From a virus: DNA of 55,635 nt. The position numbers and the translations under genes are program-made. The notes under the pieces were generated by a model, which was not told the DNA's origin, did not search any database, and saw only the letters and a list, made by a program, of their open reading frames with translations. Below, piece by piece: positions 6,738-22,787 of this stretch. The DNA lies in IMG/VR virus record IMGVR_UViG_3300003319_000118, positions 1 to 55,635 of that record; one strand, 5' to 3'. Numbering within the stretch: position 1 is the stretch's first letter; every line of letters begins with the position of its first letter.

Positions 6738-7814
6738 CTACTCCCCTTTGGTCTTTGACAGCTCGGTCTTAACCTGCTCCCAGTCTTCCGCGTGGAAACC
6801 GCCCGCGAACTGCTCTTCGATCTGTTCAAGCGTGCGCTTCTCATGTTCCATGTAGTCGAGCAGGAAGGCGATGCGTTCCTTCAACTCTTCTTCTGAGAGT
6901 CGCCGATTCGGGTCAGGGGCTTGGCCGCGGAACTGCTCTTCAGAGAGGGTGCGCGAAGCTTGCGAGCGCTCAGGGCGCGTTTTAGGAGCGAAGAGGCGGG
7001 TCAGGTGTGCGGCGGCAAACTTGGCGGCGTCTCCAACGACATCGGTGTTTAAGCGGGCGCGCCGTATCTCGTCGGCCACAAGCCGCAACGCGGGCTGCCA
7101 GTCGCCGCGCCCAGTCTTTAGTTCCCTTTCGAGTTCGCGCAGGGGTCGAAGCTCATCATCATCTGTAGTAGTTGTCTTAATAGAAGTCTTGGGTTCGTCG
7201 GAAGGTCTTTGAAAATCAACGGCTTGACCCCCACCACCCAACACCAGATTTTGGTTGGTGGGTGGGGCCAGATTTTGGTTGGTAGCTGGTTGGTGGGTGG
7301 TCTGTGGCTGGTGGCTGGTGGGTGGTGCCTCCTCCGGCGTCAGGACTTCGTAGTCTGCGCCGGTGTTGTCGCCGCGGACGTAATGGCGGCGGACAAGGCC
7401 GACACGCTCTAAATGCTTCAAGTGTGCCTTCAGGGTGTTGTGGCTCACGCCCGCCCAAGCCATCACCTCATCGAGCGTCGCCCGCACCGTCCGGCGCGGC
7501 ACGACCGCCCCCCGCGTGCGCTGGTATAGGGCGTCATAGGTCTTCTTACTCTCGCCTTTGAACCGTCCCGCCGGCAGCGCATCCCTGACCACCGAGTTCG
7601 GCACGCGAACGAAATCCCGCGCGGGGGCTATAGGGTGGGTGGTAGGTGGTGGCTGGTCGGTGGCTGGTGGGTGGTGGGTGGTCTGCGCCGCGAGTGCAGG
7701 CCCGACCAAATTAAATATCGGGTGGTCGGGCGGCGGGGTAGGCGACTCAAGCGGCTTGGCCGGCTCGCGCACCGGCAGTTTCGAGGTGCGCGGTTTAGGC
7801 TTGGCGTCCTTCAT
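6738..7814 (-). CDS. winged-helix DNA-binding protein paired with ParA (358 aa)
   Basis: Start overlaps the ParA stop (ATGA at 7811-7814), so it is the third gene of the xre-parA operon. Residues about 70-155 form a winged helix (FVRVPNSVVRD..., then DEVMAWAGVSHNTLKAHLKHLERVGLVRR). The domain is flanked by Pro/Thr/Gln/His-rich linkers with repeated TNQNL and HQPxTTHQP units, and a charged helical C-terminus. By position it is a candidate centromere-binding partner for ParA or a replication initiator; no ParB or RepA family signature was seen, so either role is inference. Confidence 0.7.
   Translation of the reverse strand: MKDAKPKPRTSKLPVREPAKPLESPTPPPDHPIFNLVGPALAAQTTHHPPATDQPPPTTHPIAPARDFVRVPNSVVRDALPAGRFKGESKKTYDALYQRTRGAVVPRRTVRATLDEVMAWAGVSHNTLKAHLKHLERVGLVRRHYVRGDNTGADYEVLTPEEAPPTSHQPQTTHQPATNQNLAPPTNQNLVLGGGGQAVDFQRPSDEPKTSIKTTTTDDDELRPLRELERELKTGRGDWQPALRLVADEIRRARLNTDVVGDAAKFAAAHLTRLFAPKTRPERSQASRTLSEEQFRGQAPDPNRRLSEEELKERIAFLLDYMEHEKRTLEQIEEQFAGGFHAEDWEQVKTELSKTKGE
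7240..7325. repeat. G-rich minisatellite within the winged-helix gene
   Basis: GGTTGGTGGGTGG-type units repeat on the + strand, including two copies of CAGATTTTGGTTGGT. A second G-rich cluster lies at about 7635-7685. Both encode the low-complexity linkers and could form G-quadruplex-like structures in single-stranded DNA. Confidence 0.55.
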
Positions 7815-10117: not shown

Positions 10118-10249
10118 ATGCCGAAGCAGATACCCGCAGTCACGCAGGCGCTCAGCGACCTGCTCAACGTTCAGACCGAACTGAAGCTCGCCGAAGCCTA
10201 CGGCGACAAGCTTTGCCTCAAAACCCCCACTTGCCCCAAAACTGCTTAA
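10118..10249 (+). CDS. short peptide gene (43 aa)
   Basis: ATG is preceded by GGAAAGAGGAGAGACCA, a very good ribosome site. The product starts PKQIPAVTQALSDLLNVQ and ends with KTPTCPKTA. The 3' end runs into the TTGCCYCAAAA repeats. Function unknown; could be the remnant of a longer gene. Confidence 0.45.
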   Translation: MPKQIPAVTQALSDLLNVQTELKLAEAYGDKLCLKTPTCPKTA

Positions 10250-10263
10250 GATTGCCTCAAAAG
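10213..10263. repeat. three iteron-like copies of TTGCCYCAAAA
   Basis: TTGCCTCAAAA (10213), TTGCCCCAAAA (10231) and TTGCCTCAAAA (10253), spaced 18 and 22 bases. Immediately followed by a perfect GC hairpin. Candidate binding sites for a replication or partition protein; not proven. Confidence 0.45.
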
Positions 10264-10268
10264 TGGAA

Positions 10269-10299
10269 GGGGCCGCGCGCCTTCACTACGCGCGGCCCC
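10269..10299 (+). terminator. perfect 11-bp GC hairpin, likely terminator
   Basis: GGGGCCGCGCG pairs perfectly with CGCGCGGCCCC around a 9-base loop. No T tract follows on either strand, so it may be a pause/processing site or a Rho-assisted terminator for the small-gene operon. Confidence 0.5.
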
Positions 10300-10529
10300 A
10301 CAGCACAGCCCCGATGAGTGGGGGCGTGCTCAGAGGTACGTTGCCCTTACGCACCTCTGTTACCTGTGGCTCACCAAAATGCCCATGTGGTATCTTCCTT
10401 TCCGATCTAGTCTTTGAAAACGTAAGGCAACGGGTCGGATGCGCAGTAGCCTGCTCACCCTCAGTGATGAGCATCGCCGTTGAGCAAGGAAGGTTCCTAC
10501 TCACGGCGACAAGGTTACGCAATCCCGAC

Positions 10530-10550
10530 TATATCTCAACTTGGGATATA
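10530..10550. promoter_or_regulatory. operator-like inverted repeat before the second XRE gene
   Basis: TATATC ... GATATA arms separated by nine bases, 36 bases upstream of the XRE start. The right arm resembles a -10 box, so a bound repressor would block transcription of its own gene. Confidence 0.4.
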
Positions 10551-10585
10551 TGTAAACCCCGAAGTCCGTCAGGGGGTAACTCCTG

Positions 10586-10864
10586 ATGGGCGCGAATCCG
10601 CGTGTCAGGCCGAAACGCTTGGCCGAGAAGCTTCGCTATATTCGGGCGTCGCTGGATTTAACGCAGGCGGAACTTTTGCGGAAGCTGGATATAGAAGGGC
10701 TTGCTACGCAGAGCAAAATATCGGAATTCGAGTCAGGGAAGCGCGAACCCTCCCTTATCATCCTCTTACAGTATGCCCGCGCCGTGAACGTCAGCACGGA
10801 CGTTTTGATTGATGATCGGTTAGACCTACCCGCCAAACTGCCAGCCAAGTCGAAGCACTCCTAA
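10586..10864 (+). CDS. XRE-family transcriptional regulator (92 aa)
   Basis: Canonical XRE fold over residues 10-75 (LAEKLRYIRASLDLTQAELLRKL...SKISEFESGKREPSLIILLQYARAVNVSTDVLIDD). Candidate lysogeny repressor or control protein. Rightward, preceded by a palindrome that is a likely operator and followed by a bidirectional hairpin. Confidence 0.85.
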   Translation: MGANPRVRPKRLAEKLRYIRASLDLTQAELLRKLDIEGLATQSKISEFESGKREPSLIILLQYARAVNVSTDVLIDDRLDLPAKLPAKSKHS

Positions 10865-10880
10865 TGCCTCTAAAAGAAAA

Positions 10881-10909
10881 GTGCCAGACCCGTACAATGG
10901 GTCTAGCAC
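10881..10909 (-). terminator. terminator of the leftward tRNA transcript
   Basis: GTGC-AGACCC pairs with GGGTCT-GCAC across a 7-base loop, with one mismatch. Read leftward it is followed by TTTTCTTTT, a good U tract. It also lies just past the XRE stop and may weakly end that transcript. Confidence 0.55.
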
Positions 10910-10940
10910 TTCATTTACGGAAACCGTATAATTACGGGTG

Positions 10941-11014
10941 TGCCCCCGCCCAGACTCGAACTGGGAGCCCCAAGCTTAGTAGGCAGGTGCTCTATCCATT
11001 TGAGCTACGGGGGC
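10941..11014 (-). tRNA. tRNA-like gene, anticodon position reads ACT, weak anticodon stem
   Basis: Acceptor GCCCCCG/CGGGGGC (7 bp), D arm GCTC...GAGC with GG in the loop, T arm CCCAG-TTCGAGT-CTGGG and 5-base variable loop are all canonical; 74 bases, no CCA encoded. The anticodon loop CTACTAA gives ACT (Ser AGU codon), but the flanking stem CCTGC/GCTTG has two mismatches, and a class I body is wrong for a Ser tRNA, which needs a long variable arm. It may be decaying, recoded, or serve as a structural element. Confidence 0.7.
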
Positions 11015-11095
11015 ACAAGCTTTCTCAGCCCTCTTATACACCCTCTGTCAAGCGACTTTTTTAGGAAGTTCTTTCAGAAAAAGTTAGAAAGTTAA

Positions 11096-11131
11096 TTCCT
11101 GAACTTCTCATACAAGAGGTTGATTCAGGAA
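11096..11131 (-). terminator. terminator of the P63C gene
   Basis: TTCCTGAA pairs with TTCAGGAA, with a further small CTCTT/GAGAAG stem inside. Read leftward it is followed by TTAACTTTCTAACTTTTT. It begins 15 bases after the stop at 11146. Confidence 0.5.
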
Positions 11132-11145
11132 CAACTTTTACAACT

Positions 11146-12279
11146 TTATAAGATTACCTCATTCACTTCCGACGAAAGATTTAACTCGGCTTGCTCTGCC
11201 TCTGCCTGTTCAGGCGTAACAGGTTTTGCGGTGGGTAACGCTCTAGCCTGCTCCGGGACTCTTAAAAAGAGATCGTACTGAATGTGGCCTTTACCGAACA
11301 TCTCCCGCATTTTCTGTTTCAACTCTTCCATGTTGTAACAAGTGCGCGCGATGCCGATGACCATCCAAATGTGTTCGATTAGCTTCTGTAACCCATACTG
11401 GCTTGAAAGCCATTGATGATAGTTCTGTCCGTGGCGGGGCTTCGGCGCGTTCTCCTTTAACCACTGTGCTACGTCAGGATCAAGGTATTCATAGATTAGC
11501 TGCATAACGAGATGCCCCCAATACTTCGGGCGCTGTGTCACGCTGCCTTTCCAATTCGTCAATCGTCCGAACTCAATCCATAAGTCATCGGGGAAAGTTC
11601 TTTCCCACTTACGCATCTCTTCCTCAAGGTATGCCCTCAGCTTGACCTTGAGCGCGTCCTCATCGCGTTTGTATTGATAGCCGGTCGCCTCATCCACAAG
11701 CGCGTCCAAGCCTACTTTCGCGCACGCTACAAGGAACATGCTGGCCTTTATAGCCATCGAAATTTGGCGAGGCGTCAGTTTCACTTCTGGCGGGTTTCTC
11801 TGGCTGGCCTCTAAAGCGGTAACAAGCCCCCGGCAGACTTCGATCAACAAATCAGTAGGCAGCCCCTTTACCTCACGCTGTAACTGCTCCACTTCGGGCA
11901 GGCGAAAAGAGACCATTCTCGCGACTACCAAGTCCTTATCTATGTATGGCTTAAGGTTTTGCGACCGCAAGTATCCTTCCAAGTCACCTTGACCCGGAAA
12001 TCCGCTCAGCATCTCCGTCGTCGCGACCCGCCCGATAACCCTTTGCCCATTGTCGAGCACATAGCAGGGCAGATTTACATCCAGAATATCTAGAAACCCC
12101 TTGTACTTCGCGACGGGTAATCCCCCGTCTTTTGTCTTTGTCGCTTTGCCGGCCTTGGCCCAACGCGCTTGCACGGCTTTTCTGGCTATTTCTTTCCGCT
12201 GTTCGGCGGTCAAGCTCATCGCGCGCGCTTGACCGCCCTTCGACGGGTCAAGAGTGGCAGCCTTTTTCTGTTTGCCCAT
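11146..12279 (-). CDS. P63C-domain protein (377 aa)
   Basis: Start at 12279 has AAGGAGGCTCTC before it; the open frame extends ten codons further without a better site. N-terminus is basic with GGQARAMSL...RKEIARKAVQARWAK, an AT-hook/histone-like region. Residues about 250-345 match P63C (LWIEFGRL, RPKYWGHLVMQLIYEYLDPDV, KPRHGQNYHQWL, KLIEHIWMVIGIAR), a domain of unknown function often on plasmids and phages. Single-gene transcript with its own operator and terminators. Confidence 0.85.
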   Translation of the reverse strand: MGKQKKAATLDPSKGGQARAMSLTAEQRKEIARKAVQARWAKAGKATKTKDGGLPVAKYKGFLDILDVNLPCYVLDNGQRVIGRVATTEMLSGFPGQGDLEGYLRSQNLKPYIDKDLVVARMVSFRLPEVEQLQREVKGLPTDLLIEVCRGLVTALEASQRNPPEVKLTPRQISMAIKASMFLVACAKVGLDALVDEATGYQYKRDEDALKVKLRAYLEEEMRKWERTFPDDLWIEFGRLTNWKGSVTQRPKYWGHLVMQLIYEYLDPDVAQWLKENAPKPRHGQNYHQWLSSQYGLQKLIEHIWMVIGIARTCYNMEELKQKMREMFGKGHIQYDLFLRVPEQARALPTAKPVTPEQAEAEQAELNLSSEVNEVIL

Positions 12280-19564: not shown

Positions 19565-19861
19565 TCAGCGGGTCGGGATTGACAGGCCGACCCCGAGAAT
19601 CACAAGCACGACTATGAGACACACCGTAACGGCGCTAACGCATATCCAACCCAGCACGATTCCGCCCGCGATAGTGGTCGCCCAAGCCCTTCTATCAACC
19701 ACGACAGCGCCCGCGTCGTAGCGCCTGAAGAAACGACCACAGCGAGGGCAGTGTTCGGCATAGGTCGAGCATTGATGATTGCAGTCGGGGCAGGGGGTCA
19801 GGCGAGCGTTAAGGGACGGCAGTTCGCCCGTATCTCTGACTTGTGCAGGCTGAGGCTCCAT
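19565..19861 (-). CDS. zinc-ribbon membrane protein (98 aa)
   Basis: CPDCNHQC...CPRCG forms a four-Cys ribbon at residues about 24-44, then one strong membrane segment (IVLGWICVSAVTVCLIVVLVILG) near the C-terminus. The stop and the next start are eight bases apart, so it is paired with the secreted DUF2846 gene as an accessory cassette. Function unknown. A similar ribbon-plus-membrane design recurs at 53135. Confidence 0.65.
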   Translation of the reverse strand: MEPQPAQVRDTGELPSLNARLTPCPDCNHQCSTYAEHCPRCGRFFRRYDAGAVVVDRRAWATTIAGGIVLGWICVSAVTVCLIVVLVILGVGLSIPTR

Positions 19862-19916
19862 GCGGTTGGCTTATATCATGTCCCTGAGACAAAAATAAAG
19901 GGCGGAACCGCAGCCC

Positions 19917-20296
19917 CACCCCTCATCCTCGCCATGCCATGCCGAACCCCGCCCTACCTGACCCCGCCAATCCCAGCCCCGCCTAGCCTTACCAGACCTA
20001 GCCACGCCGCACCTCGCCGGCCACGCCGCGCCGAGCCTAGCCGTGACTGCCGCGCCAAACCTAACCCGACCTTGCCCGGCCCCGCCTCGCCAGACCATGC
20101 CTTGCCTGCCATGCCGAGCCTAACCGCACCAAGCCCCGCCTCCCATGGCTCGCCCCGCCAAGCCTCACCTCGCCTGCCACGCCATGCCTAACCGTGCCCA
20201 GCCAAACCCGGCCAAACCATGCCGCGCCTGCCCTACTGAGCCACATCTCGCCTCGCCCCACCATACCCGGCCTTGCCTCGGCTGCCCTGCCGCGCT
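19917..20296. repeat. degenerate pentanucleotide array, RCCNN on + strand (NNGGY on - strand)
   Basis: For about 380 bases nearly every fifth position starts a GCC or ACC triplet (minus strand GGC/GGT), with two free bases between: about 75 units such as GCCAT, GCCGC, ACCTG. The phase slips a few times, as if by single-base indels. All open frames crossing it encode low-complexity WRGxAG/RRGxAR-like products and are artefacts of the repeat. It fills the gap between accessory and tail genes. Confidence 0.85.
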
Positions 20297-20436
20297 TACG
20301 GCGCGATGGCCCGCTCTGCCTTCTCCACGTAGCCGGCCGCTCTTTTCACGCGCGGCTTGTCCGTCTTGCCAGCGAGCCTTTCGAGGGCTTCAAGGCTGCG
20401 CCGGGCCGAACCGATGCGCGCCCGCGCGTCCCGCAT
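20296..20436 (-). CDS. short helical protein, start uncertain (about 46 aa)
   Basis: RDARARIGSARRSLEALE...KTDKPRVKRAAGYVEKAERAIAP is a basic amphipathic helix pair that reads as coding up to its stop, next to the repeat array. The frame is open to 20550, but a terminator hairpin at 20488-20508 lies inside that extension, so a start near 20436 is preferred. No ribosome site is evident. Confidence 0.35.
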   Translation of the reverse strand: MRDARARIGSARRSLEALERLAGKTDKPRVKRAAGYVEKAERAIAP

Positions 20437-20487
20437 CGCGGCGGAGTTGCGGCAGCGGAAGGCGGAGCAGGCGGTGTAGTAAAATAT

Positions 20488-20508
20488 GCAGCGCTCCTCA
20501 CGCGCTGC
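20488..20508 (-). terminator. terminator after the tail gene at 20547
   Basis: GCAGCGC / GCGCTGC 7-bp stem, and read leftward the hairpin is followed by ATATTTT. It suggests that the main tail transcript partly ends here, before the repeat array and accessory genes. Confidence 0.55.
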
Positions 20509-20546
20509 CCGTATACCATGAAACAACCTATCGTAAAAACCTGTCC

Positions 20547-20789
20547 TCACGAACTAACCCGCGATGCCCCCAAGTGACCCAACACATCTTTAACGTCCGA
20601 CTGATGCGCCGCCAACAACCCAAGCAGCGTTTGCAGGTCAATAGAGTTTGCATCCATTCCACCATCGTGCCGCGCCTTCCACTCAAACTTAATACTTCCG
20701 TCTCTATAGAACGCCACGCGCGCAGCGTGGTTGCGGCATCCTTCGCGCCGACACGGGACAGGTAAGACAAGCGTCGGTGCTTCGTTCAT
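20547..20789 (-). CDS. small tail-module protein (80 aa)
   Basis: ATGA overlap with the NlpC/P60 gene (20786-20789). The product has CRREGCRNHAARVAFYRDGSIKFEW, which could bind a metal through Cys/His, and a helical C-terminus. A competing frame (20528-20770) lacks coupling and is rejected. Function unknown. Confidence 0.6.
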   Translation of the reverse strand: MNEAPTLVLPVPCRREGCRNHAARVAFYRDGSIKFEWKARHDGGMDANSIDLQTLLGLLAAHQSDVKDVLGHLGASRVSS

Positions 20790-21250
20790 CCCTCACCCCA
20801 TAAAACCGGGATGCGGTAGCACGCTCTGAATATTTTGATCCAACGGTCGCTGAACGGTTGGACGGAAACCCGGCCGTGCGGGAAGCCGGGTTCGGGTTGG
20901 CTGGATGGATGCAGGATAAGGGGCGGGTCGTCGTCTGTTAGCCGGACGCCGATGTGACGCATACGGAGTGAAGGTCTGAAGAGATAGATGTCTCCCGCGC
21001 GCGCCTCTTCTTCGGTGAGCCTGACTAGATGCGTCTCAAGCGTTGACTCAATCAGCTTGTAATCGTGCGAATCGGGTCTATAGGTGTTCGGGATGTCAAT
21101 GGGAAGCGTGTAGCCTTGCAGCCCGAGCAGATAAGGTACGACGTGCAGGCAGTCTATCCCTCCGTTGAAGGGATCGCGGCCTTGATGCAGGAAGGGCGTG
21201 CCTTCAATGGCCCACGCATCGCGGATAAATTGTTCTCTGCTCAGGCTCAT
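20786..21250 (-). CDS. NlpC/P60 cysteine peptidase of the tail tip (154 aa)
   Basis: Catalytic Cys in GGIDCLHV (residue 34), catalytic His in MRHIGVRL and the following ILHPSS strand match GTA/lambda gpK-type NlpC/P60 domains that cleave peptidoglycan cross-links or stems during DNA entry. Overlaps the DUF2163 gene by ATGA. Length normal for the family. Confidence 0.85.
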   Translation of the reverse strand: MSLSREQFIRDAWAIEGTPFLHQGRDPFNGGIDCLHVVPYLLGLQGYTLPIDIPNTYRPDSHDYKLIESTLETHLVRLTEEEARAGDIYLFRPSLRMRHIGVRLTDDDPPLILHPSSQPEPGFPHGRVSVQPFSDRWIKIFRACYRIPVLWGEG

Positions 21251-22155
21251 CCTTCCACCACACGCATAGCGGCCTCCAAAGGCACATAGGGCATCCCGCG
21301 AAAGTTAAGTCCGTTGTTAAAGGTTCCTACGCAATCTTCCGCGAATCTTTTCCTACACCCTCTTGTCGCCTTCACCGTGTCCGATGTAGTCATCGGATAA
21401 GGAACAGGTAAGTGCAAAGTAAATTCACCGTTTGACGTGTCGTAAGATTTGACACGATAGGCAGGGAACCCGGCGTTACCGCCAGTCTCAATCTCAATCA
21501 ACCCATTGGTGAAGTAGTCGGCACCTTTGCCTGCCAGACTCGATACTCTGAACACGGTCTGACTCGTGACGGTCGTGATGGCTTTGCCGGTGAAGACGTA
21601 GCCGAGCGCTACAAGATTCAGCCCACAGCGCGCATCACCAAACTCTGCGTCGCACAGCGGTGAGGTCTGACGGCCGATCTGTTGCTGTAGCGCGTTATTG
21701 ATGCCCTTCGCCTCAGCCGTGAACGAGAGCGGGACTTGAATCTTGATGTCTGCAAGTCTGCCGCCTGAGACGGGTAGAACCAGCTCGCCCATTGTCGGCG
21801 CTTCGTAGTTGAGGAGAAACGCATCTACTACCGCACCCTGCCATTTCGGTGTGTTAAGTTCCGCCTCGGTGATTCCGGCCGAGGCGAGAAGGGCGGTCAG
21901 TTCAATATTTGAAGCGTGAGCGCCCGCGGCCGTCTCTAACTGTGAAGCAGCCACACCTGTTGAGTTTTTGAACGTCACGCCGGGGTGTCCCGAGAGCCCC
22001 GTGATGTCGAATGAGGCAGTAGTGAAGGCGATGACCGAGCCGACTTGTGGGGTGACTTTCACGCAGACGGCCATCGTCGACGATGCACCGGCGTAATGGT
22101 CATGCAGCGAATTAGCCGTATACGGCCCTGAGTAATTTCTGATAGCTCGGGTCAT
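21247..22155 (-). CDS. DUF2163/BR0599-type tail hub protein (302 aa)
   Basis: The LCDAEFGDARCGLNL element (about residue 160-175) and the late CRKRFAEDCVGTFNNGLNFRGMPYVP segment are hallmarks of the BR0599/DUF2163 tail family, where Cys pairs may bind an iron-sulfur cluster or a metal, as in GTA and HK97-like tips. ATGA coupling to both neighbours. Forms part of the distal hub with DUF2460 and NlpC proteins. Confidence 0.85.
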   Translation of the reverse strand: MTRAIRNYSGPYTANSLHDHYAGASSTMAVCVKVTPQVGSVIAFTTASFDITGLSGHPGVTFKNSTGVAASQLETAAGAHASNIELTALLASAGITEAELNTPKWQGAVVDAFLLNYEAPTMGELVLPVSGGRLADIKIQVPLSFTAEAKGINNALQQQIGRQTSPLCDAEFGDARCGLNLVALGYVFTGKAITTVTSQTVFRVSSLAGKGADYFTNGLIEIETGGNAGFPAYRVKSYDTSNGEFTLHLPVPYPMTTSDTVKATRGCRKRFAEDCVGTFNNGLNFRGMPYVPLEAAMRVVEG

Positions 22156-22787
22156 GCGTAATCGCGAGTCTCCACTAATCTCACCGGCTCGGTCTGTACC
22201 AACTGACGGCCACCATCAACCCACATAAATAAATCCCCGAAGTCGGACGCCGAAATATCCCACCTCGCGGCGTGGTAGAACTGACCCGTCCACGTCAGCG
22301 CCGTACCCGTGCCGGGGAAGTGTCCCGCCAACCACGTCACCAGCCCCGTCCCGTTGGCGATGGTGTAGTCTGTCCCTCTGACCTTCGCCACGGCATTCAC
22401 GAATAGCGTCTCTGAGTTCGGGACAATCAAATAGGTCTCGCGCGCATAAGCATTACCTGAATCACCTCTGGCTACCTTCAACTGAAACGGCCCCGCCGTG
22501 TTGTCGCCCGTGCCGAAGGCGTCCACGGTGGCCGTGTAGTCTGAATAATCTAAAAAAGGAAAAGAGCGCGTGCGGCCCCTTCGGGCGTTGAGGTGGTTCC
22601 TGAGTGCCTGAAACTGCGCGAGCGTGATGGTTGGGGCGAAAGAAACTTCCCACTCCTTCAAAGCGTCTGCCCACCACGCTGTTCGCGTCTCTGCACCACC
22701 ACCCGCCGCGACAACCGTATCCGACCAGCGGTCAGCGGAGCGGACGCGGGCAGGTGTGACAGGGAGTAGGACATTGTCGAAGGCCAA
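22152..22787 (-). CDS. DUF2460-type distal tail protein (211 aa)
   Basis: RRGRTRSFPFLDYSDYTA in the middle, and LVQTEPVRLVETRDYA at the end, match the DUF2460 family (distal tail protein of GTA-like tails). It connects the tail tube to the hub. Order after the tape measure is exactly as in GTA and related siphoviruses. Confidence 0.85.
   Translation of the reverse strand: MAFDNVLLPVTPARVRSADRWSDTVVAAGGGAETRTAWWADALKEWEVSFAPTITLAQFQALRNHLNARRGRTRSFPFLDYSDYTATVDAFGTGDNTAGPFQLKVARGDSGNAYARETYLIVPNSETLFVNAVAKVRGTDYTIANGTGLVTWLAGHFPGTGTALTWTGQFYHAARWDISASDFGDLFMWVDGGRQLVQTEPVRLVETRDYA

Follow-up and report, generated by a model that had tools for sequence, protein, structure and literature searches.

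The window, by which we mean the whole stretch of 55,635 nucleotides analysed here, corresponds to one virus record whose genes include those for terminase, major head and tail proteins, primase/helicase and ParA. On its minus strand, a tail operon is ordered as tape measure, phrog_2913, phrog_778, a minor tail-like gene, a degenerate five-base array, small genes and a tail protein. The array has the same orientation as the operon and lies between an 84-aa ORF (20296-20550) and a 98-aa ORF (19565-19861). The features around it, listed 5' to 3' on the minus strand, are:

22152-22787, minus strand: phrog_2913 gene of the tail operon, annotated as glycoside hydrolase
21247-22155, minus strand: gene of a tail assembly protein, phrog_778
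20786-21250, minus strand: upstream tail-operon gene with a weak minor tail match, phrog_329
20296-20550, minus strand: 84-aa ORF reaching the 5' edge of the array, no family
20488-20508, minus strand: hairpin resembling a terminator, located upstream of the array; the consensus matched once against an average of 1.2 in shuffles, which is not significant
19929-20291, minus strand: GGYNN array of the vrRNA type (see below), 61 of 67 five-base units being GGY
19888-19933, minus strand: strong hairpin at the 3' end of the array, its 3' arm rich in U, -34.5 kcal/mol, z -4.3 versus shuffles
19565-19861, minus strand: phrog_6586 protein of 98 aa, encoded downstream of the array and weakly matching a zinc ribbon

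Neither a host nor any close relative of the window phage was found, and PADLOC gave a single weak BrxA-like match on the scanned window genes. The sole tRNA of the record is a tRNA-Ser with an unusual ACT anticodon (10940-11014). Degenerate TGG-rich repeats are also present at 7276-7327 and 7634-7682 within the gene of a replication protein on the minus strand (6738-7814), where they would encode a low-complexity linker.

Parsed unit by unit on the minus strand, the array core extends 5' to 3' from 20291 to 19929 and contains six imperfect five-base units. There are 24 distinct units with many different NN. Identity on the minus strand was 0.54 at lag 5 versus 0.22-0.34 at lags 1-4 and 6-8, making period 5 the strongest short period. 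The pattern (RCCNN)x6 matched 23 times in the window, every time within 19931-20277, and not once in 100 dinucleotide-preserving shuffles. The regular GGY at every fifth base, which an earlier note on this DNA had described from the letters, is thus real and survives the shuffled control. That note had also held the array to be non-coding, in agreement with our search for a plausible protein-coding frame across the region, which found none; the array is intergenic. TRF detected no identical 20-50 bp repeats with unique spacers in the array region, the unit being 5 bp, and Rfam had no match within the array or at its 3' hairpin.

Related arrays and their partner protein

A search of the virus collection with (RCCNN)x10 showed that similar arrays are widespread in phages, with about 115 of the 120 matches listed being degenerate arrays at G+C contents of 0.39-0.73. 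In all, more than 100 virus records carry degenerate GGYNN arrays. Among bacterial and archaeal genomes, degenerate arrays accounted for 6 of the 119 matches listed, nearly all of which were ordinary simple repeats, and plasmids yielded no array match. The control register CCRNN, identical in composition, was present in 100 records of the whole virus collection, nearly all of them simple repeats, and one record had at least six different NN in nine units. This control and the shuffles together rule out chance or composition as the source of the array. Cultured carriers are Cluster F mycobacteriophages, Gordonia phage UmaThurman and Felixounavirus coliphages, and in the cultured phages examined the strand that bears GG is the sense strand for the adjacent genes. 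An assembly artefact, considered as a possibility in the earlier note, is unlikely because arrays of the same kind occur in these cultured phages, whose hosts are Mycobacterium, Gordonia and E. coli.

The proteins beside the arrays in the unrelated phages VpaE1 (E. coli), Donkeykong (Mycobacterium) and UmaThurman (Gordonia) all match phrog_4652, a PHROG without assigned function. With an HMM built from array-adjoining phrog_4652 proteins, the family was found in 128 fetched loci; within the fetched stretches it was present in 84 of 114 GGY loci, 15 of 20 GGA loci and 4 of 6 genome loci. Where the gene is present, the array lies on its strand in 191 of 191 arrays, at a median distance of 83 bases. 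The VpaE1 protein and PDB 36pp_D, "SUSP1 Vipr protein", are almost identical in sequence (E 2e-127), and a distant member of the family (L071) matches the same entry at 8e-6. Judged by sequence similarity, the phrog_4652 protein is Vipr.

VIPR (Viral Interference Programmable Repeat) was reported in April 2026 (PMC13142463 / bioRxiv 2026.04.26.720920). It combines the RAMP protein Vipr, exemplified by SUSP1 Vipr, with vrRNAs of 9-16 GGY/NN repeats for RNA-guided DNA recognition, in which NN are read with a one-base skip, usually at the wobble base, and leads to transcriptional silencing of competing phages (PMC13142463). Staggered arrays are among the array variants named in the preprint, and VIPR has been proposed as an ancestor of the CRISPR guide complex (PMC13142463).

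A second class, the GGANN arrays, was obtained with a YCCNN search and is perhaps the "related consensus" of the VIPR preprint. GGANN arrays adjoin Vipr homologues in L371 (10400-11600), L426 (4100-4500), L399 (6700-7100), L402 and L374/L397/L410/L419; those of L371 and L426 consist of blocks set apart by constant words, e.g. AAAGGAACGGCTGTANN or GGACGTANN. Listeria phages of the genus Pecentumvirus carry homogeneous, intergenic (GGATA)n arrays on the sense strand (L450, 1505-2820; L453, 1528-2720), and no Vipr was detected there.

No Vipr homologue was found in the 55.6-kb record with the PHROG HMM at E<=10 or with our own Vipr HMM, whose best hit (E 1.4) was to a short fragment. Profile-profile comparison with hhalign for a divergent Vipr in the window reached a best probability of 4%, versus more than 99% for control Viprs. 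The record is linear, and since no end repeats were found it may be a fragment. The missing Vipr therefore means either that the record is a fragment or that the array in the tail operon is Vipr-less. Vipr was absent from the fetched stretch of 26 array records, 7 of which have it elsewhere; the other 19, including L074, have none in the record and may be fragments too. The tail operon of L074 is distantly related to that of the window (27-29% identity), and its Vipr-less array is located between phrog_2913 and phrog_778 homologues, a site different from that in the window. The relatives L454 and L455 have no array in the stretch fetched. Arrays thus behave as accessory insertions. Our impression, which is unquantified, is that some Vipr-less arrays adjoin structural genes (window, L074, L024, L115). 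A divergent Vipr beside other Vipr-less arrays was considered as well: L058 has a Vipr-less GGY array (10216-11294) directly downstream of an ORF that we take from its sequence to be integrase-like instead, and this candidate was rejected. Tentatively, we suggest that some phages, with the window and L074 as possible examples, have vrRNA arrays but no Vipr at all, place these arrays in operons of late structural genes and rely on Vipr from another element that is resident or co-infects. If true, such arrays would be guide cassettes that parasitise or extend the RNA-guided weapon of another virus.

Probable guide blocks and decoded targets

The earlier note had mentioned a few phase slips in the array. 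Seven four-base units do exist, but they are not random, because GGCA recurs in five of them (the remaining two are other words) and cuts the array into blocks. Read on the minus strand, each GGCA begins at the higher of its two coordinates:

20283-20286, minus strand: GGCA boundary unit, first of five, by unit parsing
20229-20232, minus strand: GGCA boundary unit, by unit parsing
20179-20228, minus strand: guide block A, 10 units, NN = GC AT TT CG TT TG AC TA AT GT
20175-20178, minus strand: GGCA boundary unit, by unit parsing
20107-20110, minus strand: GGCA boundary unit, by unit parsing
20052-20106, minus strand: guide block B, 11 units, NN = AA AT CT GA GG CG AA CG TA TT GC
20048-20051, minus strand: GGCA boundary unit, by unit parsing
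19929-20018, minus strand: guide region C, 18 units adjoining the 3' hairpin

GGCA is also the commonest in-phase four-base unit inside the arrays of other viruses (91 cases, the next word reaching 15), and blocks bounded by it occur in L074, UmaThurman, Quico, L058, L043 and L114 as well as in the window. The lengths of blocks A and B are within the range of 9-16 units given for VIPR; the remaining blocks are less regular. As part of our proposal, the GGCA units would delimit single guides of approximately 10-11 units.

Decoded with a one-base skip, block B, which lies exactly between two GGCA units, reads KILDGRNRYLA, a conserved ParB-like motif of phage methyltransferase genes. Its 8-unit core, searched as a one-base-skip pattern, had at least 120 exact matches in virus contigs. 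The 8-unit cores of A and C had 10 and 13 matches there, which is about chance level and provided no convincing target for either, so that one of the three tested blocks gave a meaningful target. In 96 of the 120 guide B matches listed, the match falls within the longest ORF and the skip coincides with the wobble base, and a mean of 3.1 of the six flanking guide B bases outside the search pattern agreed in the matches listed, versus 1.5 expected. One virus sequence (L487) matches guide B at 22 of 22 bases and is codon-phased. From the motif we take the matched genes to encode ParB-like proteins, and a Pfam scan of two of them identified DNA methyltransferase domains in both. The 120 matches are homologous to one another and therefore not independent, given that a conserved codon string such as ILDGRNRY, once matched, brings many matches with it. 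The weight of guide B rests on the codon-phased match of a 16-base gapped string to a motif conserved among phages.

The window itself has no guide B site, the best being 16 of 22 bases, and is thus not self-targeting. The guide B core was absent from 47 bacterial genomes; because two control patterns were likewise at zero, these bacterial scans do not discriminate. A second, independent case is a guide of L010 that matches a codon-phased gene of L118 at 19 of 20 bases with a skip of 1 (minus strand, position about 331). The gene contains a VDSDM segment that, from the motif, we take to be glycosyltransferase-like. Comparison of whole guides with the fetched loci at skips of 0-4 revealed no clear overall excess of skip 1 besides this pair and the guide B loci.

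Interpretation and alternative explanations

We consider it very probable that the window array is a VIPR-type vrRNA (guide) array which a tailed phage carries in its late tail operon. Transcription of the minus strand would produce RNAs of GGYNN repeats, and Vipr, a small RAMP protein, would coat them so that each subunit occupies five bases, grips GGY and exposes NN. Successive NN would then pair with double-stranded DNA, with one base, usually the codon wobble, skipped between pairs, and the pairing would silence a gene in a rival mobile element; guide B (20106-20052) would spell the ParB-like methyltransferase motif of other phages. Our own results cover the array and its sense orientation, the conservation pattern, the link to Vipr across the family, the block structure and the codon-phased 22/22 match of guide B. 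The Vipr-vrRNA complex, the one-base skip and the silencing are adopted from the preprint (PMC13142463). We infer the step of one Vipr subunit per five bases, the transcription and use of the window array, and a source of Vipr that is either external to the record or encoded in the part missing from it. The hairpin at 19888-19933 is a candidate vrRNA tail, terminator or both. In the light of the preprint, the suspicion in the earlier note that a protein, RNA or template process demands the spacing appears right, the process being a protein-RNA one, but its reading of the period as half a helical turn of DNA does not, as five bases are most probably the distance that one Vipr (RAMP) subunit covers along the RNA (PMC13142463). 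The free bases NN most likely carry the information.

The array shares with VIPR the alternating GGY/NN pentamers, the phage-borne and intergenic location, the hypervariable NN, the guide-sized blocks and, for one guide, a codon-phased target with a one-base skip. It differs in that no Vipr was found in the record, nor, among the window genes scanned, a recognisable vap accessory gene, a class with seven types. It also differs in its location in a late tail operon and in its continuous form with blocks cut by GGCA 4-mers, perhaps equivalent to the "staggered arrays" of the preprint. With the crRNA of Class 1 CRISPR systems (Cas7/RAMP backbone) it would have in common that a RAMP oligomerises on RNA with periodic unpaired bases; however, the window array lacks CRISPR repeats, spacers and cas genes, and its guide information is noncontiguous. 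TRAP-binding leader RNA consists of (G/U)AGNN repeats with about 11 sites and spacers that hold no information. It resembles the array in the constant trinucleotide, the two free spacer bases and the proposed one protein subunit per five bases. While this kind of array was already known from the VIPR report of April 2026, the window member, one concrete decoded target and the recurrent guide-delimiting GGCA are new, and so possibly is a Vipr-less array form, which is not yet distinguishable from an incomplete record and raises the question of arrays without a Vipr gene. Our data also provide independent support for the VIPR claims in the fixed GGY, the hypervariable NN, the linkage to Vipr and the codon-phased target.

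That the array is a relic which lost its Vipr and no longer works is unlikely. The record without a detected Vipr, the six imperfect units and the two odd four-base units would fit such a history, but 61 of 67 units are intact, as is guide B with its perfect decoded target, the 3' hairpin is strong, and decay would be expected to strike GGY as fast as NN.

Across 241 uninterrupted runs comprising 2852 units, neighbouring NN agreed as often as shuffled ones at lags 1-10 (z -1.2 to 0.9), so that the arrays have no memory of slippage. In alignments of the arrays of four Cluster F phages, differences affect N in 25% of cases, G in 0.9%, Y in 0.4% and the other positions in 1.7%, NN changing approximately 15 times faster than the flanks, and in Felixounavirus N differ at 34-54% versus 4-7% for the flanks. 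For the related phages compared overall, the differences were 25-54% for NN, 1-7% for GG and 2-7% for the flanks. GGY is a fixed frame in which NN are rewritten, which bears out the view of the earlier note that GGY is held while NN are free, and that simple slippage is not the cause. A decayed or variable microsatellite, i.e. a pentanucleotide repeat grown by slippage whose NN drift neutrally, would explain the tandem period of 5 and has a parallel in the homogeneous (GGATA)n arrays of Listeria phages. We nevertheless regard it as extremely improbable: the lag test and the phase-specific substitutions rule it out, CCRNN arrays of equal composition are nearly absent, and the arrays always lie on the Vipr gene strand where Vipr is present.

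A cis-acting nucleic-acid element with GG every five bases is just as improbable, be it two-tetrad G-quadruplexes, an R-loop zone, a pause array for RNA polymerase, dense primase sites or a track for a DNA-binding protein. The GG spacing on the sense strand and the strict sense orientation suit several such elements, but these need neither a fixed third base Y nor maximally variable NN, they call neither for a linked RAMP protein nor for four-base GGCA units as boundaries at intervals of 10-13 units, and an NN string that spells part of a phage gene in codon phase would not be expected from them. CRISPR, G-quadruplex, R-loop, RNA polymerase pause array, primase-site array and CsrA-type or TRAP-type RNA sponge were considered from the sequence and rejected, as none predicts free-but-informative NN, the Vipr linkage or a codon-phased target.

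Several existing annotations coincide with such arrays. In Felixounavirus genomes, GGTNN arrays located next to vipr overlap with or border on features named "repeat_region", "DR_4" or "possible binding site of StbAB" (L448, 2254-2800; L449, 971-1361 and 2393-2960; L456; L457), and these repeat and StbAB annotations look wrong. One paper on Felix O1-like phages mentions direct repeats without a function, and no explanation of the arrays was found in this literature; in Felix O1 itself the gene pair is absent, together with most of that region. Donkeykong gp48 (L242, 3454-3840) and similar "hypothetical proteins" of Cluster F are ORFs called across the array.
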